Assembly: GCF_900106765.1 (NCBI RefSeq)
Contig: NZ_FNNG01000003.1
Location: 186,001 to 250,000 of the forward strand
DNA from: Tepidimicrobium xylanilyticum
GTDB taxonomy: Bacteria; Bacillota; Clostridia; Tissierellales; Tepidimicrobiaceae
Length of the DNA: 64,000 nt
Direction of reading: 5' to 3'
Positions within the stretch are counted from its first letter, which is position 1, and every line of letters starts with the position of its first letter. The notes beneath the pieces are model-generated. The model did not search any database. It was given only the letters and a program-made list of their open reading frames with translations, and was not told the origin of the DNA. Both the position numbers and the translations under genes were made by a program. Positions 198 through 64,000 of this stretch are shown in pieces.

Positions 198-1667
198 TTA
201 TAAGATAGGAGAAAGTAATCTGGAGATGGATTCCTTTATTTTCACAATATTAGACCTCTGAGCATATTCTTCTTTAGTTATTTCCCTACAATGTTCTAGA
301 TCCTTATTAAACTGTTCTACCATTTTCCTATTCGCATCCTCATCGTATATAAAAGCATTTACCTCAAAATTAAGCTTAAAGCTCCTAATATCTAAATTAG
401 CTGTACCTATGGAAGTAACAAAATCATCCATTATAAAGGTTTTACAGTGAAGGAATCCATTTTGGTAGGTATAAAATCTCACCCCAGCTTCTAATAGCTC
501 TCCTATATAGGAAAGTCCTGCCCAATAAACAAAGGGGTGGTCTGGTTTGCAAGGAATCATGACCTTTACATCTATACCAGAAAGGCCAGCTACTCTTAAA
601 GCTTCAAATATACTATCATCTGGTATAAAATATGGAGTTTGAATATAAATCCTTTCCCTAGCATTGGCAATCATCTTAAAATATCCATCTTTTACACTAG
701 CCCATTTTGAGTCTGGTCCACTACTTACTATCTGAATTCCCGCCTTCCCCTTCTTTGGTCTTTCAGATAGTTCCATGTTCCATTGAATATTATACTTCTT
801 GGCTGCAAAAACCCAATCTTTAAAGAACCTCCACTGAAGGTCCTCAACTGCAGTCCCTATTATCTTTATATGGGTATCTCTCCAATATCCAAATTTTTTG
901 GAAAGGCTTAAATATTCATCCCCTATATTAAATCCACCAATAAAGGCTTCTTTACCATCAATTATGCAAATCTTCCTATGGTTTCTATAATTTATTCTGG
1001 GAGTAACATAGGGGGCAAATGGAGGGAAAAAAACTGCTACTTCTCCGCCAGCTTTCTTCAGTGCATCAAAGCAATCCTTCCTTAACTTTCTTCCTCCCAT
1101 TCCATCATATAATACCTTAACTTCTACTCCTTCTTTCGCTTTTTGGGTTAATTTATCTATAAGCTTAGTACCTATGCCATCACTCTTCATAATATAGTAT
1201 TCCAAATATATATATTTCTTGGCATTTTCAATACTCTCTAATAAAGCCTCAAATTTTTCCTGACCCGAGAAATAAAATTCAATATAATTGTCCTCAGAAA
1301 AAAAAGATTCACTAGTTAAGATATGCATCTTTATTATATCATCATACTCTAAAAACCTAGGATTAGAAAACTTATATTCATCTTCCACCATCTTTTGACC
1401 TTGTCGTAATACCCTCTCTCTAATTCCCTTATCCTCTTTTTCCTTTATTTTAAACATCTTTTTTTTACTCATGTCCTGCCCGATGAATAAATATAATAGA
1501 AAACCTATACCTGGAAGAAAAGTCAATACCATAAGCCATAACCAAGTGGTAGTAGGATTTCTCCTTTCAAAAAATACCAACAATATAGCAAATAAAATAT
1601 TTATCCATAATATATTCGTGAATAGCCAAGTATAGCCATCTATTATATACTCCATAGAATCACCCAT
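198..1667 (-). CDS. cls: Cardiolipin synthase (phospholipase D family)
   Basis: This membrane enzyme joins two phosphatidylglycerol molecules to make cardiolipin and glycerol. The 489-residue protein has the usual bacterial Cls layout: two N-terminal membrane segments (about 13-33 and 41-63) followed by two PLD domains. Both HKD motifs are intact, with H230-K232-D237 (NHRKICIIDG) and H407-K409-D414 (LHCKTFIMDD). The length is typical of the family. The ATG at 1667 has no clear ribosome site. The in-frame ATG at 1655 sits just after GGGTGA and gives a protein beginning MEYIID, so it is probably the real start. The gene follows typA with 30 bases between. Confidence 0.93.
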   Translation of the reverse strand: MGDSMEYIIDGYTWLFTNILWINILFAILLVFFERRNPTTTWLWLMVLTFLPGIGFLLYLFIGQDMSKKKMFKIKEKEDKGIRERVLRQGQKMVEDEYKFSNPRFLEYDDIIKMHILTSESFFSEDNYIEFYFSGQEKFEALLESIENAKKYIYLEYYIMKSDGIGTKLIDKLTQKAKEGVEVKVLYDGMGGRKLRKDCFDALKKAGGEVAVFFPPFAPYVTPRINYRNHRKICIIDGKEAFIGGFNIGDEYLSLSKKFGYWRDTHIKIIGTAVEDLQWRFFKDWVFAAKKYNIQWNMELSERPKKGKAGIQIVSSGPDSKWASVKDGYFKMIANARERIYIQTPYFIPDDSIFEALRVAGLSGIDVKVMIPCKPDHPFVYWAGLSYIGELLEAGVRFYTYQNGFLHCKTFIMDDFVTSIGTANLDIRSFKLNFEVNAFIYDEDANRKMVEQFNKDLEHCREITKEEYAQRSNIVKIKESISRLLSPIL

Positions 1668-1675
1668 TATGAAAT

Positions 1676-1702
1676 GTAAAATAATCTAATCTAAAGATTA
1701 TT
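1676..1702 (-). terminator. Weak terminator after typA
   Basis: AATAATCT (1680-1687) and AGATTATT (1695-1702) form an 8-bp AT-rich hairpin. On the minus strand a short T run follows, and the typA stop codon overlaps the stem. It is weak and may allow read-through into cls. Confidence 0.4.
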
Positions 1703-3518
1703 TCTTCGATTTATGTCTTTTATTCGAATCCAAAATCTTCTTTCTTATCCTAAAGCTAGTTGGAGTTACCTCTATAAGTTCATCATCTTCTATAAACTCT
1801 AAGGCTTCTTCTAAGGATAATTGCCTTGGTGGAGCTAACCTTAAAGCTTCGTCAGAACCTGCAGCTCTTATATTGGTTTGATGTTTTTTCTTACAAACAT
1901 TTATCTCAATATCCATTCCTTTAGGATTTGAACCTATTACCATCCCTTTATAGACTTTAGTTCCTGGAGTGATAAAAAGTTCCCCCCTGTCTTGAGCTGA
2001 ATATAATCCATAGGCTGTTGCTTCTCCTGTCTCATAAGCAATCAAGGAACCTTCCTTCCTCGTAACAATGTCCCCCTTGTAGGCCCCATAACCATCGAAT
2101 ACAGAATTTAGAATGCCATTGCCCTTAGTATCCGTCATAAACTCGCCTCTATAACCGATTAAACCTCTAGCAGGAACAGAAAATATTAGCCTATGATATC
2201 CTCCGTTGCTTTCCGACATGCTGATTAATTCACCTTTTCTCATACCCAATTTTTCTATTACTATTCCAATATATGATTCCGCTACATCAACTGTTACCAT
2301 TTCCATTGGTTCTAATCTCTTCCCATTTTCGTATTTATATAAAACCTCTGGTTTTGAGACTTGAAACTCATAACCTTCCCGCCTCATGTTTTCTATGAGA
2401 ACAGATAAATGTAATTCTCCCCTCCCAGATACTTTAAAAGCATCAGTAGAACTTGTTTCTTCTACCTTCAAGCTAACATCCGTTTGCATCTCCTTAAATA
2501 ACCTGTTTCTTAATTGTCTTGAGGTCATATATTTTCCTTCTTTTCCCGCAAAAGGGCTGTCGTTGACCGAAAAAGTCATGGCAATGGTAGGTTCAGAAAT
2601 CTTTACAAAGGGAAGAGGCTCCGGAGCATCTACATCACAAATGGTATCTCCTATATGAATTCCCTCTACGCCTGTAACTGCAATTATACTCCCTGCTTTT
2701 GATTCTTTTACTTCTTTTCTGTTTAATCCTTCAAATTCATAGATATTAGTTATCTTTACCCTTTTTATTTCGTCTTTTTTGTTTTCATTAACAATTATAG
2801 CTTCTTGATTCGTTTTTATTTTTCCTCTTTCTATTTTACCAATTCCAATTCTTCCTACATAATCATTATAATCTATAGTGGAAATTAATAATTGCAATGG
2901 TTCATCTATATTGACATTTGGAGCTGGAATATATTTAATTATCGTCTGGAATAAATCCTCTAAGTTATCTTTTTTCACGTTCAAATCTAATGTTGCCGTT
3001 CCCTCCTTTGAGGAAGTAAATACGAAAGGAGATTCCAAGTATTTTTCATCTCCACCTAATTCGATGAATAAATCTAAAACCTCATCTAAAACTTCTTCTG
3101 GTCTTGCTTCAGGCCTATCTATCTTGTTTATGCACACTATAGTTGGCAAGTTTAACTCCAAAGCCTTCTTTAATACAAATTTGGTTTGGGGCATAGGCCC
3201 TTCAAAAGCGTCTACCAATAATAATACTCCATCTACCATTTTAAGAACCCGTTCCACTTCTCCACCAAAATCTGCATGGCCTGGAGTATCTACAATATTT
3301 ATCTTAACATTTCCATAATAGATAGCTGTATTTTTTGCTAAAATGGTAATACCTCGTTCCCTTTCAATATCATGTGAATCCATAATTCTTTCTGCAATTA
3401 TCTGGTTTTTTCTAAAAATCCCGCTTTGCTTTAACATACTATCTACTAATGTTGTTTTCCCGTGATCAACATGAGCAATAATTGCTATATTTCTTAAGTC
3501 ATCCCTTATAATTTCCAT
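1698..3518 (-). CDS. typA: Translational GTPase TypA/BipA
   Basis: TypA is a ribosome-binding translation-factor GTPase needed under stress and at low temperature. At about 606 residues it has the family length. The GTPase motifs are clear: P-loop AHVDHGKTT near residue 16, DTPGHADFGGEVERV, and NKIDRPEARPEEV. EF-G-like domains and the BipA C-terminal region (RGLIGYRGEFMTDTKG, then APPRQLSLEEALEFI) follow. I chose the ATG at 3518-3516 preceded by AAGGGAT; a TTG one codon upstream is also in frame. It is followed by cls on the same strand. Confidence 0.97.
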   Translation of the reverse strand: MEIIRDDLRNIAIIAHVDHGKTTLVDSMLKQSGIFRKNQIIAERIMDSHDIERERGITILAKNTAIYYGNVKINIVDTPGHADFGGEVERVLKMVDGVLLLVDAFEGPMPQTKFVLKKALELNLPTIVCINKIDRPEARPEEVLDEVLDLFIELGGDEKYLESPFVFTSSKEGTATLDLNVKKDNLEDLFQTIIKYIPAPNVNIDEPLQLLISTIDYNDYVGRIGIGKIERGKIKTNQEAIIVNENKKDEIKRVKITNIYEFEGLNRKEVKESKAGSIIAVTGVEGIHIGDTICDVDAPEPLPFVKISEPTIAMTFSVNDSPFAGKEGKYMTSRQLRNRLFKEMQTDVSLKVEETSSTDAFKVSGRGELHLSVLIENMRREGYEFQVSKPEVLYKYENGKRLEPMEMVTVDVAESYIGIVIEKLGMRKGELISMSESNGGYHRLIFSVPARGLIGYRGEFMTDTKGNGILNSVFDGYGAYKGDIVTRKEGSLIAYETGEATAYGLYSAQDRGELFITPGTKVYKGMVIGSNPKGMDIEINVCKKKHQTNIRAAGSDEALRLAPPRQLSLEEALEFIEDDELIEVTPTSFRIRKKILDSNKRHKSKK

Positions 3519-3630
3519 CAAGAATATCCCTTCCTACTTTAAACTTATAATTAATTTTTATATATCGTCAACAATCTTCCATATACTATATATGGACTAG
3601 CAAATTCTTTAATATTATCTTTAAATTATG

Positions 3631-3652
3631 ATGGCAGGGGGTACCCTGCCAT
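3631..3652 (-). terminator. Hairpin between the RsbW-like gene and typA
   Basis: ATGGCAGGG (3631-3639) and CCCTGCCAT (3644-3652) form a 9-bp GC-rich hairpin with a 4-base loop, just downstream of the RsbW-like gene on the minus strand. Only an AT-rich tract follows, so it is a probable rather than certain terminator. Confidence 0.5.
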
Positions 3653-3666
3653 ATTCATAATATATA

Positions 3667-4071
3667 TTATCCCATATATTTTACAGCTACAATTCTATTA
3701 TTGTCAATATATAACTCATCAGATAACCCATCAACAATTATCAAGCCCCTCCCACAGCATTTTAATTCCGTCGGATCATAGCTAGATATATCAAAATCTA
3801 TACCCTCTCCCTCATCAGCAACTTCTATTCTTATGGTATTACCTGCTATTTCAAGGAATAAGTTCACACTCTTATTACAATTACATCGATTCCCATGAAC
3901 TACACTATTTATAATGAGTTCATTTAATATTAATTTTATATCAAACATTATATCCTGATCTTGGATAATCTTTTCTATTCTACTTAGTACCTTTTTAATA
4001 AATGCTTTTATATCGTCTAAATCGCTGCGTACAGAACCCTCAAATATGAAAGACACCTCAATCACGCCCAT
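3667..4071 (-). CDS. Anti-sigma-factor-like serine kinase (RsbW/SpoIIAB-type HATPase)
   Basis: This 134-residue protein is a stand-alone GHKL ATPase domain of the HATPase_c_2 type. The N box is [11 protein letters not shown] (about residues 50-60), the G1 box is DEGEGID (about 87-93), and the glycine-rich GRGLIIV lies near 108. RsbW and SpoIIAB use this fold to bind a sigma factor and phosphorylate an anti-anti-sigma protein. No sigma factor or STAS partner is adjacent, so the target is unknown, and it could instead be a solo phosphorelay ATPase. The ATG at 4071 lacks a strong ribosome site, so the start is uncertain; a GTG at codon 3 is an alternative. It is divergent from rubredoxin. Confidence 0.8.
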
Positions 4072-4233
4072 CTACTCAATAATCCTTATTTAGTATTATT
4101 TATAGTTTACCCACAAATCATCCATTTAATCTTATACCCTTTTATTATTCTATCACAATATTTAACAAATTTCAGTTTAAAATCTATATTTTTGGGTATT
4201 ATCCCAGTGATTACATATGAAAGGAGAGTATAT

Positions 4234-4395
4234 ATGGACAGATATGTTTGTGAACCCTGTGGATATGTTTATGATCCAGAAGAAGGTGATCCGGATAATG
4301 GAATAGAACCTGGTACATCTTTTGAAGAATTACCAGATGATTGGGTTTGTCCAGTATGTGGGGCTACAAAAGATATGTTCGTTAAAGAAGAATAA
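4234..4395 (+). CDS. Rubredoxin
   Basis: Rubredoxin is a cytoplasmic one-electron carrier with one iron held by four cysteines. In anaerobes it feeds rubrerythrin and other oxygen-stress reductases. The 53-residue protein beginning [19 protein letters not shown] has both CxxCG-type knuckles, CEPC near residue 6 and CPVC near residue 39. I chose the ATG at 4234 because AAAGGAGAG lies just upstream and the protein then has the exact family length; the longer in-frame start adds a non-homologous extension. Rubrerythrin, a likely redox partner, is at 42.0 kb. Confidence 0.97.
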
Positions 4396-4401
4396 TACTC
4401 T

Positions 4402-4435
4402 AGAGCAGCTATCTTTTAGATAGCTGCTCTTCTTT
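4402..4435. terminator. Bidirectional terminator between rubredoxin and engB
   Basis: AGAGCAGCTATCT (4402-4414) and AGATAGCTGCTCT (4418-4430) form a perfect 13-bp hairpin with a 3-base loop, followed by a pyrimidine-rich T tract on the plus strand. The engB stop codon lies inside the stem, so the hairpin serves both converging genes. Confidence 0.93.
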
Positions 4436-5020
4436 CTTAATGAGGATATTCTGTATTAAGCTCCATATCTTATCCCTATTAATATAATTTGATGAGGAAT
4501 AGGGTAATATAAGGTTTAAATCCTCTATCTGCAATTTGTCTTTAATAATCTTAATATTTTTCTGGTATTTTCCCTTCGATATTTTGTCCGCCTTTGTAGC
4601 TATAACTATCCCTGCAAATCCAAATGTTCTAATCCAATTATACATCATTAAATCCTGTTCTGTTGGTTCGTGCCTTATGTCTACCAACTGGATTACTTCG
4701 ACTAAATTTCTTCTAGTATTTAAATATTCCTCTATTATATAGCCCCATCTCTCCTTTTCCTTTTTAGACACTTGAGCAAACCCATAACCGGGCAAGTCCA
4801 CAAGTCTTAATCTCCCATCTATATTGTAAAAATTTATAGTTCTAGTCTTCCCAGGTTTGCTACTAGTTTTTGCTAGATTTTTTCTGTTTAATAGGGAGTT
4901 AATAAAGGAAGATTTTCCTACATTAGATCGCCCAACAAGAGCAATTTCCGGTAATCTATCATCCGGATACTGTTTTACATTTACAGCTATTTTCTCTAAT
5001 TCAGCTTTAATCACTTTCAT
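4409..5020 (-). CDS. engB: Ribosome biogenesis GTP-binding protein YsxC/EngB
   Basis: EngB is an essential GTPase for assembly of the 50S ribosomal subunit. The protein beginning [10 protein letters not shown] is about 203 residues. It has the G1 loop [10 protein letters not shown] (about 30-39), a threonine-containing switch ([11 protein letters not shown]), G3 DLPGYGFA and G4 TKADK. I chose the ATG at 5020, preceded by AGGAAGAGGACA; an upstream in-frame ATG at 5059 would add 13 residues coded inside lon. The start overlaps the 3' end of lon by 14 bases, which indicates translational coupling. The tig-clpP-clpX-lon-engB order is common in Firmicutes. Confidence 0.96.
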
Positions 5021-49763: not shown

Positions 49764-51024
49764 ACAGTTCATTTTTTATCATATCTTCATAACTTTCCCT
49801 CTTTACAATTAACCTATCTACACCATCCTTTATCATAACCACAGCTGGCTTAGGAATCTTATTGTAATTACTAGCCATAGAATAATTATAAGCTCCAGTA
49901 GACAAAACTGCCAGAATATCTCCAGATTCAATTGGTGGTACCTTTAAGTTCCAAATTAATATATCTCCTGATTCACAACATTTACCTGCTATAGTAACAG
50001 TTTCACTAGGCTCTTTGTCTGCTTTATTAGCGATAATTCCCTTATATTCCGCTTGATATAAACTAGGCCTTGGGTTATCAGTCATACCTCCATCAACGCT
50101 TGCATAAATTCTTACCCCGGGAATTTCTTTTATTGCACCTATTGTATATAAAGTTATACCAGCTTCCCCAACAATCCATCGCCCTGGTTCAATTATAACC
50201 TTAGGCCTTTCTAAGCCATAATCATTACAGCTTTCTTCAATTTCCTCCATGAAAGCATCCGTATAATAAGAAATTGGTTTTCTTTCTTCCTTATCGATAT
50301 ATTTTATGCCATAACCACCACCAATATTCAATTCCTTAGTTATAAATCCAAATCTGTTTTTAGCTTCCGCCATAAGATTAACCACATTTTTGATTGCTTT
50401 AATATAATTTTCTTTATCGAAAATCTGAGAACCAATATGGAAATGAAAACCTAATAGTCCTATATAAGTTGATTTTAAAGCATTTTCTATAGCTTCAAAT
50501 ATAATTCCTTGACTTAAAGGTATTCCGAATTTAGAATCTATCTGTCCCGTTTGAATATATTTATGGGTATTGCTGTCTACTCCTGGAGTAACTCTAAAAA
50601 GTACATTAATTTTTTTATTATATCTTTGAGTGATGTTGTTTAATAAGGAAAGTTCATATAAATTGTCTACTATTATCCTGCCTACTCCATACTTTATAGC
50701 TTTTTCCAATTCCTCTTCAGTTTTATTATTCCCATGAAAAATAATCTTTTCTGGAGGAAAATCCACTTGCATAACCGTATACAATTCCCCACCAGATACT
50801 ACATCTATGCCAAGCTTCTCACTTTTTATTATTCTTGCCATTTCTTTGGTCAAAAAAGCTTTGCTAGCATAGAAAACCTCCGTATTTTCATATTTTTCTA
50901 AAAAATTGGTTTTAATTTCGTTAATTCTATCTAAAATCATATTTTCAGACATAACATATAATGGGGTTTTATATTTATTCGCTAAATATACTGTATCGAC
51001 TCCAGCAAATTTAAAGTTGGTCAT
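49762..51024 (-). CDS. lysA: Diaminopimelate decarboxylase
   Basis: LysA makes lysine from meso-diaminopimelate. The 420-residue PLP enzyme has the cofactor lysine in VFYASKAFLT (about 52), the HFHIGSQIFD motif, the glycine loop NIGGGYGIKY, the EPGRWIVGEAG motif and the C-terminal cysteine region CCESGDI. The length is normal. GGACGGATTAAT precedes the ATG at 51024. No lysine riboswitch was recognised upstream. It is a single gene; other decarboxylases of this fold are less likely. Confidence 0.93.
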   Translation of the reverse strand: MTNFKFAGVDTVYLANKYKTPLYVMSENMILDRINEIKTNFLEKYENTEVFYASKAFLTKEMARIIKSEKLGIDVVSGGELYTVMQVDFPPEKIIFHGNNKTEEELEKAIKYGVGRIIVDNLYELSLLNNITQRYNKKINVLFRVTPGVDSNTHKYIQTGQIDSKFGIPLSQGIIFEAIENALKSTYIGLLGFHFHIGSQIFDKENYIKAIKNVVNLMAEAKNRFGFITKELNIGGGYGIKYIDKEERKPISYYTDAFMEEIEESCNDYGLERPKVIIEPGRWIVGEAGITLYTIGAIKEIPGVRIYASVDGGMTDNPRPSLYQAEYKGIIANKADKEPSETVTIAGKCCESGDILIWNLKVPPIESGDILAVLSTGAYNYSMASNYNKIPKPAVVMIKDGVDRLIVKRESYEDMIKNEL

Positions 51025-51310
51025 ATTAATCCGTCCTTTCTACAAATAATTCTTCTGACTAATTAACAAGCAATAATCATACCAATATAAACGCTTATAC
51101 TTATTGAATAAAGTGAACAATCTATTCAATTAATTCCTAGTTTTCGAACTTATTATAAAAAATCACAGCTAAAACTATGCAAATTGCCAAATTTCCTGAT
51201 GCTCGTACCATATTCCATTTTTACGTACTGTTTCAACATAGTTTTCCCAAAAAATTTTCTTTTTATGGTCTGGTTAACTAATAGAACCACTGCTACATAA
51301 ATTTACATGG
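51025..51310. other. Intergenic region upstream of lysA and the spore protein
   Basis: No gene was found. The region must hold the lysA promoter (minus strand) and, at its right end, the spore-protein promoter. I looked for a lysine riboswitch and found none of its conserved core. Confidence 0.5.
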
Positions 51311-51338
51311 TTTATATTTGCTTTTTCTACACATAATA
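51311..51338 (+). promoter_or_regulatory. Candidate sigma-G promoter of the SASP gene
   Basis: TTTATA (51311-51316) and CATAATA (51332-51338) are separated by 15 bases, close to the forespore sigma-G pattern. They lie about 56 bases upstream of the SASP start codon. Confidence 0.45.
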
Positions 51339-51393
51339 CTACTACAATTTCATATAAAAATAAAAATTAATACCTAGGAAAGGAGTGAATATA

Positions 51394-51621
51394 GTGGCTA
51401 ACAACAATACTGGCTCCAATAAAATACTAGTACCTGAAGCACGACAAGCTTTAGATCAAATGAAATTAGAAATCGCTTCTGAACTTGGTTTGTCAAACTA
51501 CAATTCAATTGACAAAGGAAATCTACCCTCTAGACAAAATGGTTATGTTGGTGGATATATGACAAAGAGATTAGTTCAGATGGCACAACAAAGCATGGGT
51601 GGAGGAACTACAACTAGATAG
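51394..51621 (+). CDS. Alpha/beta-type small acid-soluble spore protein
   Basis: SASPs coat spore DNA and protect it from UV and heat. The 75-residue protein from MANNNTGSNKILVPEARQAL has the family features: the GPR protease cleavage motif EIASELG, and the conserved GGYMTKRLVQMAQQ. I chose the GTG at 51394 with AAGGAGTGA upstream; a GTG nine bases earlier overlaps that site. It is strong evidence that the organism forms spores. Confidence 0.95.
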   Translation: MANNNTGSNKILVPEARQALDQMKLEIASELGLSNYNSIDKGNLPSRQNGYVGGYMTKRLVQMAQQSMGGGTTTR

Positions 51622-51631
51622 GTTTTATTGA

Positions 51632-51658
51632 AAAAGGCAGGTTTATAACCTGCCTTTT
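51632..51658. terminator. Bidirectional terminator between SASP and the L,D-transpeptidase
   Basis: AAAAGGCAGGTT (51632-51643) and AACCTGCCTTTT (51647-51658) form a perfect 12-bp hairpin with a 3-base loop and A/T flanks, serving both converging genes. Confidence 0.93.
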
Positions 51659-51686
51659 AATATTAAAAAAATTTCAATTTCCATTA

Positions 51687-52412
51687 TTAATCCATTAGTA
51701 TTATACCTAATTTTTCATAAATCTCATATTCGATAGTGTCTGTCAAAGCCAGATCATTATCCTTTAAATATTGGATTAAAGCATGTTTCATTCCTTCCCC
51801 ATATATGCCATCTAAAACTCCAGTATAATATCCTTTTAATTTCAATCGCTTCTGTACCTCCATCACATCTGAACCTCTATCTCCTGGTCGTAGTTTTCTA
51901 AAGCCATGTGCAAAAGGACCATAATCTCCACTTACTATGGCAACAGTAGTATTATAATTTATAAGGCTATAAAGTTCTTCCACATCTTTATTCCTCATCC
52001 TTATACATCCTGCAGAAGCATTAAAACCAATAGAACCTGGCTTGTTAGTTCCATGTATTCCATATTTACCCCAGGGCACATCTAGTCCAATCCATCGGGA
52101 ACCAAATCCGCCACCCCATTTGGCCTTTTCTACTATTTTAAAAGTTCCTAAAGGAGTTGGTGTTTCTGGCTTCCCTGTAGCCACTACATACGACTTTATA
52201 GTACTACCTGTAGCCAAATCTATTACTGAAAGCCTCTTTTTATCTACCTCAATAAGTATGGCAATTTTATTTTTATCTATCTTCAAATAGGTATCCTTGT
52301 TTTCTGAATCCATACTTTTTTGAATTAATAAAAGATGAATGTTATTTCCAATCAATATAACCATTAATACCAATGAAAATAATAAAAGTGTGGTCTTTAT
52401 TCGCCCCTTCAT
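51687..52412 (-). CDS. L,D-transpeptidase with peptidoglycan-binding domain
   Basis: This 241-residue protein has an N-terminal signal anchor (about 8-30), a YkuD L,D-transpeptidase catalytic domain (about 47-165) with HGTNKPGSIG and the catalytic cysteine in SAGCIRMRN, and a C-terminal PG_binding_1 repeat (GDRGSDVMEVQKRLKLKGYY...GVLDGIYGE). It would cross-link or modify peptidoglycan outside the membrane. Near a spore gene it may act in cortex or wall maturation, which is inference. GGGGGGATGGATGG precedes the ATG. Confidence 0.92.
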   Translation of the reverse strand: MKGRIKTTLLLFSLVLMVILIGNNIHLLLIQKSMDSENKDTYLKIDKNKIAILIEVDKKRLSVIDLATGSTIKSYVVATGKPETPTPLGTFKIVEKAKWGGGFGSRWIGLDVPWGKYGIHGTNKPGSIGFNASAGCIRMRNKDVEELYSLINYNTTVAIVSGDYGPFAHGFRKLRPGDRGSDVMEVQKRLKLKGYYTGVLDGIYGEGMKHALIQYLKDNDLALTDTIEYEIYEKLGIILMD

Positions 52413-58848: not shown

Positions 58849-59035
58849 ATATAAGTTCACACAAAAAAGAGATAACTTTATTATCTATTATCGTTCTTGG
58901 TAGAATTTCTATAAGATTAGCATGGATTTATTTGATTTGTAGAGCCCAAGAAGTAGTGACCCTTCACCACCAAATTGTTACCCATGCCTAGCATACCTAA
59001 AAAGAGAGTAACATTAGTGCTACCCTCAGCATTAT
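58815..59035 (-). ncRNA. Candidate structured non-coding RNA, family unknown
   Basis: The 444-base gap between the SLH gene and the 94-residue ORF holds a GC-richer stretch that is not coding. On the minus strand it folds into GAGGGTAGC/GTTACTCTC (59027-59004, 9 bp with wobbles), then GTGGTGA/TCACTAC (58970-58953, 7 bp), and ends at a 15-bp terminator (58848-58815). Unpaired segments between them (GGTATGCTAGGCATGGGTAA) look conserved-like. It might be a known RNA such as the raiA motif, a leader of the SLH gene, or only a 3' UTR. Confidence 0.4.
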
Positions 59036-59071
59036 GTAAATAAAGTTAATCCACTTATTAGATTGGCTTAA

Positions 59072-59356
59072 CTATTCTTCTGGCATATAAGGCTTATATA
59101 TTTCGTATATGGAAAAATTTTTATTACTTAATAGCTTAACCACAACAGGTATTTGTTGTACGCTTATATTTAACTCTATTCCATTATATTTTAAAACCAT
59201 GTCTTCTGCTTCCACAAGCTTGGATTGAAGAATTGTATCCACAATTCGACTTCCAGTATCTGGTATATTCATTCCACCTATCACAAAAAAAATCCGCTGT
59301 TTTTTATTTGAATAGTCTTGGGGATCTAGCTTGTTTATCAATAATATCTTGTTCAT
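59072..59356 (-). CDS. Hypothetical protein, 94 residues
   Basis: This protein starts at the ATG at 59356 (MNKILLINKLDPQDYSNKKQ), preceded by GAGGAGCTTGATT; a TTG two codons earlier overlaps the same site. It has mixed alpha/beta character with no signal peptide or membrane segment. I recognise no family. It is divergent from the Crp/Fnr regulator gene, with a shared 341-base intergenic region, and is followed by the possible structured RNA. Confidence 0.65.
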   Translation of the reverse strand: MNKILLINKLDPQDYSNKKQRIFFVIGGMNIPDTGSRIVDTILQSKLVEAEDMVLKYNGIELNISVQQIPVVVKLLSNKNFSIYEIYKPYMPEE

Positions 59357-59697
59357 AATCAAGCTCCTCGCATTCTATTTTATTAATTCATTGTAAACGA
59401 ATATTACTAGTATGACTTATTTAGCTAAAGTCTCTTCATAATAAAATCTATTTCTTAAGCTGATTTTATGTCATTAGATTTTCACTCCTTTGTTTATATT
59501 ACAGTATCGGAGAAAATATCCTATTTTTTAATTGGTCTTTTATTTTTATTTACCCAATTTCCATAAAATATTCACATTTTAAAACAATTTATTTTTTTCG
59601 AGAATGTATATTAGCCTATACATCTAGGATTGCTTTAAAACCTCCAATATAATAAAATATTTATAATACTAGTAGACCCCCATTGGAGGTTAAGAAG
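59357..59697. other. Divergent regulatory region of the Crp/Fnr gene
   Basis: No gene is present. ATGTATA (59604-59610) and TATACAT (59617-59623) form a perfect inverted repeat with a 6-base spacer, a typical spacing for a dimeric regulator. A candidate plus-strand promoter is TTGCTT (59630-59635), 17 bases, TAAAAT (59653-59658). Left of 59600 the sequence is AT-rich and unremarkable. Confidence 0.55.
59639..59691 (+). promoter_or_regulatory. Inverted repeat spanning the Crp-gene promoter and ribosome site
   Basis: AACCTCCAAT (59639-59648) and ATTGGAGGTT (59682-59691) are perfect 10-base inverted repeats. The left arm lies between the candidate -35 and -10 boxes; the right arm contains the GGAGGT ribosome site. 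They could be paired operators, or the arms could pair in a longer transcript and mask translation. Confidence 0.6.
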
Positions 59698-60378
59698 ATG
59701 AAAGAATATATAGGACAATTGTTGAAATGTGTTTTATTTAGAAATATGGATCAAGATGAAATAATAAGGGCTTTTAATAAAATACCTTATCAAATAATAG
59801 AACACAATAAAGGTGAATTGATTGCAATAGAAGGAGACGATTGTCACAGTTTAGGAATCATATTAAGGGGCAAAATAGAAATCCAAAAGGTATTTCCATC
59901 AGGCCAGGTTATGACCATAAATATTTTTAGCGAAGGAAATATATTTGGTGAATCCTTAATATTTTCAAACAAACATACCTATCCTGCAACTATAACTGCT
60001 ATAGAAAAGGCTAAAATAATGTATATAAAAAAGGAAAATATAATCGAACTGTCCATGTTTGAACCAAAGGTATTAACTAATTTTGTCTCCGTATTATCTG
60101 AACGAATTTTAATGCTAAATAATAGGATAGCCAATTTAAGCCAGGATACCATTAGAAAAAAAATAGCTAATTACCTTTTGCACGAATATAATATCCAGAA
60201 AACCACAGTTTTAAATATACCATTTACAAGAAAGAGAATGGCAGAACTTCTAAACATTCCAAGACCTTCTCTATCAAGGGAATTGGGACATATGAAAGAG
60301 GAAGGAATAATCGATTTAGACAAAAATATAATTAAAATATTGAATATTCAATTATTGGAAGAAGCTCTTTTTAATTAA
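59698..60378 (+). CDS. Crp/Fnr-family transcription regulator
   Basis: This 226-residue protein from MKEYIGQLLKCVLFRNMDQ has an N-terminal cyclic-nucleotide-binding-like domain (HNKGELIAIEGDDCHSLGII, then GNIFGESLIFS) and a C-terminal Crp-type HTH (RKRMAELLNIPRPSLSRELGHM). It lacks the N-terminal cysteine cluster of Fnr. I chose the ATG at 59698 after TTGGAGGTTAAGAAG. The ligand is unknown. It lies next to a multidrug ABC exporter operon, but a link is unproven. Confidence 0.92.
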   Translation: MKEYIGQLLKCVLFRNMDQDEIIRAFNKIPYQIIEHNKGELIAIEGDDCHSLGIILRGKIEIQKVFPSGQVMTINIFSEGNIFGESLIFSNKHTYPATITAIEKAKIMYIKKENIIELSMFEPKVLTNFVSVLSERILMLNNRIANLSQDTIRKKIANYLLHEYNIQKTTVLNIPFTRKRMAELLNIPRPSLSRELGHMKEEGIIDLDKNIIKILNIQLLEEALFN

Positions 60379-60439
60379 TATGAATGTTAAAAATAATATG
60401 GATAATTATTACAATTGTATTACAAATATGTAAATATAC
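60379..60439. other. Short spacer after the Crp gene
   Basis: AT-rich, with no terminator that I could see. It leads into the ABC-exporter promoter. Confidence 0.4.
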
Positions 60440-60467
60440 TTGCATTTTTGTGTATACAATGTATAAT
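60440..60467 (+). promoter_or_regulatory. Sigma-A promoter of the ABC-exporter operon
   Basis: TTGCAT (60440-60445) and TATAAT (60462-60467) are separated by 16 bases. TATACAATGTATA (60453-60465) is a small palindrome inside the spacer and -10. The predicted transcript starts near 60474, 30 bases before the leader ORF. Confidence 0.8.
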
Positions 60468-60504
60468 ATAGCCATAATAAATTAAGTTAAGGAGGTCGTG
60501 AAAA

Positions 60505-60579
60505 GTGATCATAATAAACTTAATAAAGTCTAAAGAGAACTATATAAATATAAAAACACGGCCTATGAGTATTTTTTGA
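60505..60579 (+). CDS. Leader peptide of the ABC-exporter attenuator (24 residues)
   Basis: A GTG at 60505 follows a strong AAGGAGGTCG site and opens a 24-codon ORF ending in TGA at 60577. The peptide is isoleucine- and lysine-rich and ends KTRPMSIF. Its last codons contain the segment CACGGCCTATG (60557-60567) that can pair with the first terminator, so ribosome position would control transcription. Small size, the perfect ribosome site and position between promoter and tandem terminators mark it as a regulatory leader rather than a functional protein. Confidence 0.78.
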   Translation: MIIINLIKSKENYINIKTRPMSIF

Positions 60580-60600
60580 TATAATTCTATCAGCCCATAC

Positions 60601-60632
60601 CCATAGGCGTGTTTGCCTATGGTTTTTATTTT
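60601..60632 (+). terminator. Attenuator terminator 1 upstream of the ABC exporter
   Basis: CCATAGGC (60601-60608) and GCCTATGG (60615-60622) form a perfect 8-bp stem followed by TTTTTATTTT. The left arm CATAGGCGTG (60602-60611) can instead pair with CACGGCCTATG in the leader ORF (10 bp with one bulge), which would prevent termination. Confidence 0.88.
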
Positions 60633-60702
60633 GAATATAATGTTAATTTCAATTTTTTGGCTCTTAGGAATAATTAGGCCTATTTTTAATAGTTTATTGC
60701 AT

Positions 60703-60747
60703 AAAACCATAGGATTGTAGACATTTTGTCACATCTTATGGTTTTTT
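60703..60747 (+). terminator. Attenuator terminator 2 upstream of the ABC exporter
   Basis: AAAACCATA (60703-60711) pairs with TATGGTTTT (60737-60745) around a bulged inner stem, followed by Ts. CCATAGG (60707-60713) inside its left arm is also complementary to CCTATGG (60616-60622) of terminator 1, giving a second competing pairing. Confidence 0.8.
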
Positions 60748-60777
60748 ATATTTTACGATTTAAGAAGGAGGGTAGTT

Positions 60778-62580
60778 ATGAAGGAAATAAAAAAATTATT
60801 CGAATTTATGACTGGTTACAGAAAGATTTATTTGTTAGGAATGGTATGTATTATCCTCTCTCAAATTTTTAGCATGCTATCTCCCTTAGTAGTTAGAACC
60901 ACAATAGATTCCATCATTGGGGATGAAGTAATCAGTTCTAAAATAATGAAGAATATTATAGATCTTTGGGGAGGCAAATTTTTCTTAAGGAATAATATAT
61001 GGTTAATCGGCAGCATCATAGTAGTAATAACCTTATTAAGAGGATTATTCTTATACTTTAAGAATACTTTATCCAGCAAAGCCGCAGAGCATACTACTAA
61101 AAAAATTAGAGATTTACTTTATGACCATATACAAAGACTTCCATATGAATACCATATAAAAGCAGAGACGGGTGACCTGGTTCAAAGGTGTACCTCAGAT
61201 GTGGAAACCATTAAGAGATTTTTATCCATTCAGTTGGTGGAAGTGGCAGGCTCCTTATTTATGGTAATATTGGTCTTTTATATTATGGTTAGCTTAAATG
61301 TAAAAATGGCCCTAGTATCTACCATTACCATGCCTGTAATATTTGCTTTTGCGTTTATATTCTTTTCTAAGGTGAAAATCGTCTTTCAAAATTCCGATGA
61401 AGCTGAAGCTGAACTAACTACAGTCCTTCAAGAAAATTTAACTGCTGTAAGGGTAGTAAAGGCTTTTGCAAGACAGGATTATGAGATAAAGAAATTTGAT
61501 GAAAAAAATAAAGAATATAGGAACAAAAGCCAGAAATTAATCAATCTTCTAGCTGTATATTGGGCAGTATCAGATTTTCTCTGTTTTTTGCAAATAGGTT
61601 TGGTATTGGTCTTTGGAAGCTTTTGGGCTGTTAGAGGAGATATATCTTTAGGTACTTTAGTAGCTTTTATAAGTTATATAAACATGCTCCTATGGCCCAT
61701 TAGGCAAATGGGACGAACTCTTACAGATATGGGAAAAGCTGTAGTCTCTGTAAGGCGTATTGAAGAAATATTAAACCAACCCATAGAAATATTAGAGGAA
61801 AAGGGAGAAAAACCTGCTATTCATGGTAATATCTCCTTTGAAAAGGTTTGGTTTGGATATGACAAAGCTAATCCTGTGCTAAAGGACATATCTTTTACAG
61901 TAAAAGCTGGCAGCACCCTAGCCCTAATTGGACCTACTGGATCAGGAAAAAGTTCATTGGTCCATCTACTGTCTAGGCTATACGATTATGATAAAGGTTC
62001 TATAAAAATTGATGACATGGAATTGAAGGACATAGATAAAAAGTGGATTAGAAAAAATGTAGGAATAGTCCTTCAAGAACCCTTTTTATATGCGAAGACC
62101 ATTAGAGATAACATTAAACTGGCAGATCCTACTATTAAAGATGATAAGGTTTATGAATCTGCAAAGATTGCTAGTGTTCACAAAGATATAATGTCCTTCG
62201 ACAAAGGCTATGATACCTACGTAGGAGAAAGAGGAGTATCACTATCTGGAGGACAAAAACAAAGAATAGCTATAGCTAGAACTATTATTAACAACTGTCC
62301 TATTGTGATATTTGACGATTCTTTATCAGCTGTAGACACAGAAACGGATATTGCTATTAGAAAAGCTTTAAAAAATAGACAGAGTAAATCTACCACGATA
62401 ATAATATCCCACAGAATTGCTACAGTATCCGAAGCAGATATGATTTTAGTCATGGACAAAGGCAGAATAGTCCAAAAGGGAAGCCATGAGGAATTGTTAA
62501 AGGAAGAGGGATTGTATAAAAGAATTTATCAGATTCAAAATCCCACTGAAGAATTCATGGACCTAAATCTTAGAACATAA
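60778..62580 (+). CDS. ABC multidrug exporter half-transporter, degenerate-site subunit (BmrC/YheI-like)
   Basis: This 600-residue type IV exporter has six membrane helices (about 15-320) and an NBD with Walker A GPTGSGKSS, signature LSGGQKQRIA and H loop IISHRIATV. Walker B ends VIFDDSLSAVD, with Asp in place of the catalytic Glu; this is the mark of the degenerate half of heterodimeric exporters such as BmrCD and TM287/288. The ATG follows GAAGGAGGGTAGTT. It probably pairs with the next gene to export drugs or lipids. Confidence 0.93.
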   Translation: MKEIKKLFEFMTGYRKIYLLGMVCIILSQIFSMLSPLVVRTTIDSIIGDEVISSKIMKNIIDLWGGKFFLRNNIWLIGSIIVVITLLRGLFLYFKNTLSSKAAEHTTKKIRDLLYDHIQRLPYEYHIKAETGDLVQRCTSDVETIKRFLSIQLVEVAGSLFMVILVFYIMVSLNVKMALVSTITMPVIFAFAFIFFSKVKIVFQNSDEAEAELTTVLQENLTAVRVVKAFARQDYEIKKFDEKNKEYRNKSQKLINLLAVYWAVSDFLCFLQIGLVLVFGSFWAVRGDISLGTLVAFISYINMLLWPIRQMGRTLTDMGKAVVSVRRIEEILNQPIEILEEKGEKPAIHGNISFEKVWFGYDKANPVLKDISFTVKAGSTLALIGPTGSGKSSLVHLLSRLYDYDKGSIKIDDMELKDIDKKWIRKNVGIVLQEPFLYAKTIRDNIKLADPTIKDDKVYESAKIASVHKDIMSFDKGYDTYVGERGVSLSGGQKQRIAIARTIINNCPIVIFDDSLSAVDTETDIAIRKALKNRQSKSTTIIISHRIATVSEADMILVMDKGRIVQKGSHEELLKEEGLYKRIYQIQNPTEEFMDLNLRT

Positions 62581-62594
62581 TGGAGGTGAGAAAC

Positions 62595-64000
62595 ATGGAT
62601 AAGGAAAAAATCAACATTAATGTATGGAGAAACTTTGCCCAACTTATAAGATCCCAGGGTAAAAATATTGTATTTCTATTTATAATTATGATAGGAGTAG
62701 GAGTATTAGATTCAGTTTTTCCACTGTTTTCTAAATATGTAATAGACAATTTCATTGCAAAAAACACCCTCCATGGGCTTGATAAATTCATCCTCATATT
62801 TCTTTCGATAATACTAATCCAAGGTATAAATGTATTCCTATTTTTAGTCCTAGCAGGAAAAATAGAAACCAATATATCCTATGACATAAGAAAGATGGGC
62901 TTTGAAAAACTTCAGTTGCTTCCTTTATCTTATTATGATAAAAAGGCTGTTGGTTGGTTAATGGCTAGAATGACGTCTGATATAAATAGAATTAGTGAAA
63001 CCATTTCCTGGGGATTAGTGGATTTTTCTTGGGGAATTGCCATGATGTTAGCCATAGTCATTGCCATGTTTAATCTAAATGTAAAATTAGCATTAATAGC
63101 ATTAACAGTGGTACCTCCATTGGCTATTACAAGCGCATACTTCCAAAAGAAAATCCTTAAAGCTCAAAGAGAGGTAAGAAAAATTAATTCCAAGATTACT
63201 GCCGCTTATAATGAGGATATATCTGGTGCAAAAACCACCAAAGTATTGGTTAGGGAAGATATCAACCTAGAGGAATTTAGCTTAATTACTGAAGATATGT
63301 TAAAGGCTTCTATAAGGGCCACCATAATTTCCTCCTTGTATATTCCTATAGTGTTAGTGCTGGGAAGTATTGGAACAGCTCTTGTATTAAATGCTGGTGG
63401 AAAAAACGTAATAATGGGAAGCATCAGTTATGGTACCCTGGTAGCCTTCATATCCTATACTATGCAGTTCTTTGAGCCCATAAGACAATTGGCAATAATC
63501 TTTGCTGAGGTTCAATCTGCTCAAGCCTCTGCTGAAAGGGTTTTTTCCCTTTTAGATGAAAAACCTTCCATTACCGATAGAAGAGATGTAGTAGTAAAAT
63601 ATGGAGACTTATTTAATCCAATAAAGGAAAACTGGCCTGAAATTAAAGGTGAAATAGAGTTTCGAAATGTATCCTTTGCCTATGAAAACGGAAAAGAAGT
63701 TTTAAAGGATTTTAATCTAAAAGTTAAACCTGGAGAAACCATAGCCTTAGTCGGTGAGACAGGTTCAGGAAAGTCTACAATAGTAAATCTGTTATGTAGA
63801 TTCTATGAATCTACCTCTGGAAAAATATTAATAGATGGAATTGATTATAAAGATATGCCTCAGGTTTGGATACACGAAAATCTAGGATATGTTCTCCAAA
63901 CTCCCCATCTATTTAGTGGAACTATTAAGGAAAATATAAAATACGGAAACCTTAATGCCACAGAAGAGGATATAATAAGAGCCAGTAAGTTAGCTAATTG
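62595..64000 (+). CDS. ABC multidrug exporter half-transporter, partner subunit (BmrD/YheH-like), partial
   Basis: An ATG at 62595 follows TGGAGGTGAGAAAC, 14 bases after the first half-transporter. The frame stays open to the window end, giving 468 residues. It has the exporter membrane domain (about 20-325), then FRNVSFAYENGKEVLKDF and Walker A GETGSGKST (about 388-396), with the Q loop VLQTPHLFSGT. The rest of the NBD, including Walker B, lies beyond the window. It is expected to carry the intact catalytic glutamate. Confidence 0.93.
   Translation, partial: MDKEKININVWRNFAQLIRSQGKNIVFLFIIMIGVGVLDSVFPLFSKYVIDNFIAKNTLHGLDKFILIFLSIILIQGINVFLFLVLAGKIETNISYDIRKMGFEKLQLLPLSYYDKKAVGWLMARMTSDINRISETISWGLVDFSWGIAMMLAIVIAMFNLNVKLALIALTVVPPLAITSAYFQKKILKAQREVRKINSKITAAYNEDISGAKTTKVLVREDINLEEFSLITEDMLKASIRATIISSLYIPIVLVLGSIGTALVLNAGGKNVIMGSISYGTLVAFISYTMQFFEPIRQLAIIFAEVQSAQASAERVFSLLDEKPSITDRRDVVVKYGDLFNPIKENWPEIKGEIEFRNVSFAYENGKEVLKDFNLKVKPGETIALVGETGSGKSTIVNLLCRFYESTSGKILIDGIDYKDMPQVWIHENLGYVLQTPHLFSGTIKENIKYGNLNATEEDIIRASKLAN

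Follow-up and report, generated by a model that had tools for sequence, protein, structure and literature searches.

A probable ribosome-controlled attenuator with linked tandem terminators upstream of an ABC exporter in Tepidimicrobium xylanilyticum

The window, that is, the whole stretch of 64,000 nucleotides of Tepidimicrobium xylanilyticum DNA analysed here, contains a gene pair for a heterodimeric ABC exporter, preceded by what is probably a ribosome-controlled transcription attenuator: a chain of six segments, P-A-B-C-D-E, predicted to decide between termination and read-through in the cell. In this reading, equally probable, the pairing P:A is an anti-antiterminator in which the ribosome-binding site of the leader itself is covered as well. 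The core of this reading (a leader ORF, an A:B antiterminator, the terminators B:C and D:E, and their coupling through C:D) had been proposed in an initial annotation and is supported by covariation. What the present work shows by computation is the segments with their conservation and covariation, the open frame of the leader, likewise conserved, and where its stop lies.

Layout of the element and its exporter genes

Re-reading of the sequence bore out segments A to E and the coordinates of the leader and of both terminators (Table 1). The five-segment scheme itself stands as regards A to E, which covary, and falls short in the count, a sixth segment, P, having been overlooked. P is complementary to the start of A, forming in the window the helix GGUCGUG:CACGGCC with one G-U pair.

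Table 1. Features of the attenuator and the exporter genes in the window
Feature	Coordinates	Strand	Sequence or description	Basis or remark
Likely promoter	60440..60467	+	TTGCAT 60440-60445, spacer 16 nt, TATAAT 60462-60467	by eye; putative
Leader ribosome-binding site	60491..60500	+	GGAGGTCGTG	sequence; comparative conservation
Segment P	60494-60500	+	GGTCGTG	overlaps leader ribosome-binding site; cis > trans pairing with A
Leader ORF	60505..60579 (stop 60577-60579)	+	GTG start, 24 codons, MIIINLIKSKENYINIKTRPMSIF	sequence; open frame
Segment A	60557..60567	+	CACGGCCTATG	pairs with P (via CACGGCC) or with B
Terminator T1 (B:C)	60601..60627	+	hairpin, then T run 60623-60627	scan; comparative
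Segment B	60602-60611	+	CATAGGCGTG	sequence
Segment C	60615-60622	+	GCCTATGG	sequence
Terminator T2 (D:E)	60703..60747	+	hairpin 60703-60745, then T	comparative; C:D cis > trans
Segment D	60707-60713	+	CCATAGG	sequence
Segment E	60737-60745 (E arm of hairpin 60735-60741)	+	TATGGTTTT	sequence
ABC exporter subunit 1	60778..62580	+	600 aa	D replaces catalytic E (FDDSLSAVD); signature LSGGQ
ABC exporter subunit 2	62580..64397, leaving the window at 64000	+	605 aa	catalytic E (LDEA); signature LSTGQ

The A:B antiterminator and the B:C terminator share B and are mutually exclusive; both covary. During free translation of the leader, a ribosome at the stop codon would mask A, so that B:C would form and the polymerase would terminate at T1; polymerases getting past T1 would meet T2, since C would be held in T1 and D left free. 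A ribosome halted on the start codon or immediately beyond it would instead mask P and free A for pairing with B; with A:B formed, T1 could not form and C would be available for C:D, which would block T2 too and allow the exporter to be transcribed. Such a switch would sense where the ribosome is, whatever peptide it is making. In cells, termination and read-through are predictions of this scheme, and ribosome-targeting drugs are the presumed inducer.

The signal from the window alone is modest, and the comparative evidence is strong. T1 was picked up by the terminator scan of the window (shuffled mean 0.6), and the attenuator region gave folding z values of -3.3 to -3.4. The likely promoter is absent from the list of the consensus promoter scan. 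Within the organism's own genome, a model search with E up to 1e-3 returned this locus only, and a DNA search for further copies gave, besides the element itself, only short chance-like matches. Rfam yielded no matches with E up to 1 across window positions 59000-62000, and in 20 element loci only two above gathering, both away from the element.

The assignment of the downstream genes to a heterodimeric ABC exporter is supported by a catalytic site which is degenerate in subunit 1 and intact in subunit 2; the signature motif is normal in subunit 1 and altered in subunit 2. Such active-site asymmetry between subunits is a known trait of heterodimeric exporters. The solved structures related by sequence are ABCB-type exporters, Sav1866 included, and two further entries among them we take to be TmrAB and TM287/288. 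The gene immediately preceding the attenuator, in the same orientation, encodes a Crp/Fnr-family regulator (59683-60378); in L014, L015, L017, L023 and L024, too, a gene of this family precedes that of the ABC protein.

Covariation, leader conservation and ribosome position

Covariation was assessed by comparing duplex energies within elements (cis) and between elements (trans) in 56 representatives (45 where T2 was needed), with 5000 permutations ignoring relatedness. Cis exceeded trans in A:B (-10.7 vs -9.0 kcal/mol), C:D (-12.1 vs -9.3) and D:E (-16.3 vs -8.5), as well as in P:A (-12.6 vs -10.5) and B:C (-15.9 vs -10.9), two pairings which are part of the search model and whose scores are therefore favoured by the selection of elements; 0 of 5000 permutations was found for each of the five. 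The control pairings P:B, P:C, P:D, A:C, A:D and A:E showed no significance (769 to 4939 of 5000). The outcome was unchanged in a reduced set, with each combination of family and gene class represented by a single element (37, or 31 where T2 was involved): 0 of 10000 permutations for each of the five pairings, relatedness again being ignored. Segments A to E of the earlier scheme covary in both sets of related genomes (56 and 37 representatives).

P:A is exchanged between elements as a whole helix: GGTCGTG:CACGACC, GGTCGTA:TACGACC, GGTCGTT:AACGACC and GGCCATG with TATGGCC are found, as are GGTTGCG:CGCAACC, GGTAGAG:CTCTGCC, GGTAGGG:CCCTGCC and GGTAAGG:CCTTGCC. The pairing is weak, only -5 to -7.5 kcal/mol, in L124, L136, L146 and L078.

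The leader was tested starting from 57 elements, in 4 of which no A was recognised; its frame is open through A in all 53 others, against 7.3 expected from dinucleotide shuffles. The leader ribosome-binding site is conserved in the alignment of 24 sequences. Of 50 elements whose A is of the CG type, 49 have their leader stop 14-33 nt downstream of the CG (median 19); a ribosome standing on that stop would extend over A. Among these 50 elements A is translated in all three frames (32, 8 and 10), and therefore it is the RNA that is conserved, not the peptide. The C-terminal residues of the leader ending KTRPMSIF, which had been singled out as distinctive, are accordingly no conserved peptide, and the peptide motif RP[MV] is rejected as the conserved feature. 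What is conserved in the leader is thus its translation and the placing of its stop, not the peptide encoded.

The response to ribosome position was modelled in 55 representatives by folding transcripts truncated immediately ahead of C, the ribosome being given a footprint of 30 nt. A:B reached a probability of 0.97 for a ribosome on the start codon, against 0.29 for one at the stop and 0.66 without ribosome; in 48 of the 55 the start value was higher than the stop value by more than 0.2, and the reverse occurred in none. Furthermore, withdrawing B raised the probability of C:D from 0.23 to 0.95; the rise exceeded 0.2 in 37 of 45 representatives, and in none did the value fall. For the window itself, folding gave A:B 0 and B:C 0.87 with the ribosome at the stop, A:B 1.00 and B:C 0 with the ribosome at the start, and C:D 1.00 with B withdrawn against 0.01 otherwise. 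Equilibrium folding after completion of T1 had also been tried as a test of the switch and was replaced by the RNA ending before C, having shown no discrimination in 34 of 55 elements: mean T1 was 0.97 without ribosome, 0.84 at the start and 0.98 at the stop, and stop exceeded start by more than 0.05 in just 20 of 55. In most elements T1 wins at equilibrium wherever the ribosome sits, and therefore the switch must be kinetic, decided during transcription.

The ribosome-free RNA of the window is predicted to hold P:A at 0.99 before B exists and A:B at 1.00 once B is made, still 0.97 after T1 is complete. As A:B prevails there, P:A may be a weak off-state in the window; accordingly, modelling allows that loss of the start codon could mean OFF if P:A persists kinetically and ON at equilibrium. 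With the ribosome at codon 5, T1 is back at 0.83 because P is free. The initial annotation had a ribosome at the leader stop favouring termination, with which folding agrees, and an earlier stall freeing A, which holds in folding for the start codon but not for codon 5; induction should therefore require a ribosome arrested at its first codons, or else a second one queuing at the binding site.

That the two terminators are independent and alike by copying, with T1 alone regulated and T2 serving as insulation, would account for the resemblance of B to D and of C to E in most elements. A strict control for plain copying of terminators is the mirror pairing B:E, which was weakly significant in the full set (3 of 5000) and gave 37 of 10000 in the reduced one (37; 31 with T2), so that part of the C:D signal may stem from repeat-like terminators. 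Nevertheless, C:D surpassed B:E in both tests, its gain in the full set being 2.8 kcal/mol against 1.1, and among ABC elements alone C:D was the only significant one of the two (0 vs 3013 of 10000). Moreover, the repeats vary together with A: in L125, L132 and L133, CGCAG arms accompany A = CCTGCGA or CCTGTG. The two terminators look coupled because the C:D signal exceeds that of B:E, and copying without coupling is considered unlikely.

As regards what is sensed, a peptide-specific arrest on the leader (as with RLR or erm leaders), in which RP(M/V) near the end would be the arrest motif, agrees with the R-P frame at A in most leaders (32 of 50), the KTRPMSIF of the window among them. It is nonetheless quite improbable: 18 of 50 read A in the other two frames (e.g. 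STTYDRF, HDLRF, TTSVVY), and a ribosome arrested at RPM would likewise sit over A, making termination more likely. The RLR arrest motif is absent from the window leader and not common to the leaders of the 85 elements described below, where a few occur by chance. Attenuation of the trp type, sensing charged tRNA through a codon run, has the same 1:2, 2:3, 3:4 logic, and Ile-Ile-Ile opens several leaders in the window's family; that run, however, is confined to this family, no codon run is common to the tabulated leaders of other families, and the exporters, acetyltransferases, rRNA methylase and peptidases downstream do not make up one biosynthetic pathway, all of which renders this reading very improbable. 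Finally, a riboswitch-like regulator binding a ligand or a protein, suggested by a structured leader conserved before transporters, is hardly credible given that no Rfam family was found at the elements, that the open leader and its stop position are conserved, and that the 24 aligned sequences have no conserved aptamer-like core beyond the pairing segments. The preferred reading remains a switch controlled by ribosome position.

Distribution, downstream genes and tandem terminators

A covariance model comprising P:A and B:C, with A:B and C:D left out, was built from 24 sequences. At the order level, 54 of 249 genomes had a match with E up to 1e-5; at the class level, 28 of 291 with E up to 1e-3; and at the phylum level, 10 of 299 with E up to 1e-5. 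Seven weak class-level loci (L079-L085, E 9e-5 to 9e-4) were inspected by eye and not accepted, and one class-level row (G165:C129, 8e-4) lay outside the inspected set. The phylum search added nine further loci, among them three before GNAT genes, three before ABC relatives and two adjoining a gene of another kind, for an ABC ATPase.

The order and class searches together provided 85 tabulated elements, L136 being included though without a visible P. Relatives of ABC subunit 1 follow 58 of them. Among the 27 others, 19 precede genes of other classes, assigned by Pfam on one protein per kind and otherwise grouped by eye: MFS (4), EamA (4), SLFN_AlbA_2 (4), GNAT (2), SpoU methylase (2), peptidase M29 (2) and PmbA/TldD (1). 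The remaining 8 of the 85 have no assigned downstream gene class, two of them lying at contig ends.

A search with the ABC protein gave 42 match rows, from which 30 loci were examined, 2 of them cut off at contig ends. The leader ribosome-binding site, with its P, and A are present in 27 of the 28 intact loci. The exception, L017 (G009), a close ABC relative with neither P nor A, has lost the leader and T1 and keeps a single CCATAGG-type, T2-like hairpin before the exporter. One contig carries exporter gene and attenuator twice, on opposite strands and with equal scores (G016:C124:21653-23431 and 50510-52288). In L025-L028, L030, L032-L036 and L128, T2 is followed, ahead of the ABC start, by a further short ORF that has a ribosome-binding site and is absent from the window; its peptides end alike before the stop (..EYG, ..ESG or ..ETG, ..DT), and it is perhaps a second, translational layer.

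The check independent of the model relied on a GNAT protein search, with matches in 12 of 299 genomes and upstream regions examined at 10 of the 12 loci, and on L041 and L040, found with the ABC protein. Five GNAT loci had a P:A rarely equalled in shuffles (L164, 2 of 300 as good; L166, 4; L167, 3; L168, 3; L169, 16), L164 being also matched by the covariance model; the upstream regions of the other five contained no leader with pairing between binding site and end. L041 has a P:A equalled by 7 of 300 shuffles and tandem terminators with, by eye, quite different arms (GGAGTCT); no P:A was found in L040, a close relative (92 of 300 shuffles as good). One uncharacterised GNAT family, whose C-terminal part is long (about 740 aa in L135), is seen at L075, L135, L156, L160, L161 and the loci of the GNAT search. 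The occurrence of this family behind such leaders in distant families suggests a role against ribosome inhibitors.

T1 was found in 82 of the 85 elements and T2 in 71 of these 82, counted with the stricter hairpin finder, a looser one having at times mistaken A:B or C:D helices for terminators. Two terminators, which the initial annotation took to be distinctive, are common in this family, and erm(K) has also been reported to have two adjacent ones (PMC4335068). Some elements have more: four in L125 and three in L132 and L133 according to the scan, and three or four by eye in L129, L137 and L138. Terminator arms of the CGCAG type follow a changed A in L125, L132, L133, L137 and L138.

Known attenuators and significance

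Attenuation of this kind is already known from several systems, described here from the accessible portions of the respective reports. The vmlR leader of Bacillus subtilis has the same three hairpins (anti-antiterminator, antiterminator, terminator) and control by a leader ribosome stalled at the start, a uORF ribosome arrested there by lincomycin or retapamulin preventing the anti-antiterminator (PMC9226507). Its uORF is a tripeptide inside the hairpin and one intrinsic terminator is described (PMC9226507), whereas the present element pairs the binding site with the leader end over at least 20 codons and chains a second terminator. Similarly, rli80-hflXr of Listeria monocytogenes combines a leader, of 14 codons, with anti-antiterminator, antiterminator and terminator; loss of the start codon results in constant OFF and ErmC abolishes induction (PMC6310831). 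That leader carries an RLR arrest motif (PMC6310831), whereas the present element lacks a conserved peptide and its tandem terminators look coupled.

The bmrB leader of B. subtilis, like that of the window, is a leader ORF ahead of a heterodimeric multidrug ABC exporter, bmrCD, with drug-induced read-through and a predicted anti-antiterminator (PMC4191407). As the initial annotation stated, a single terminator is described in the text available; it lies inside the leader coding region, whereas the window leader stops at 60579 and T1 starts at 60601, outside the coding sequence, and neither a pairing of binding site and leader end nor a C:D coupling is described in that text (PMC4191407). The ermK attenuator of Bacillus licheniformis shares with the present element two adjacent intrinsic terminators in a drug-resistance context, but in what is accessible of the report its leader is macrolide-specific and controls an rRNA methylase (PMC4335068). 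For patAB of Streptococcus pneumoniae, terminator, antiterminator and anti-antiterminator have been predicted before an ABC exporter pair; one terminator is given and the term 'leader peptide' has 0 occurrences in the text as available (PMC4319486), whereas the present element has a leader ORF and two terminators.

The literature searched, with few subscription papers in it, contained no recognised description of the present element, nor of a conserved family with pairing between leader binding site and leader end or with a C:D-type link between terminators. As far as these sources extend, the mode of attenuation is that of vmlR, rli80-hflXr, bmrB and ermK, and the family with coupled tandem terminators looks new.

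A broader proposal, for and against which we see the balance as even, is that these elements are phylum-wide, modular, peptide-independent sensors of ribosome position, in which the binding site zips to the leader end and two to four linked, mutually exclusive hairpins switch the terminators together, before many unrelated self-protection genes. If this is true, their placement before such genes (ABC, MFS, EamA, GNAT, rRNA methylase and peptidases) would mark undiscovered genes for coping with ribosome inhibitors. One covariance model would then reveal an unrecognised translation-stress regulon across Clostridia and their neighbours, and point out, among uncharacterised transporters, acetyltransferases and peptidases, those that respond to ribosome inhibitors. 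The design would also provide a mechanism for switching two or more terminators as one, and a leader readout which, unlike that of erm leaders, would be independent of the peptide.
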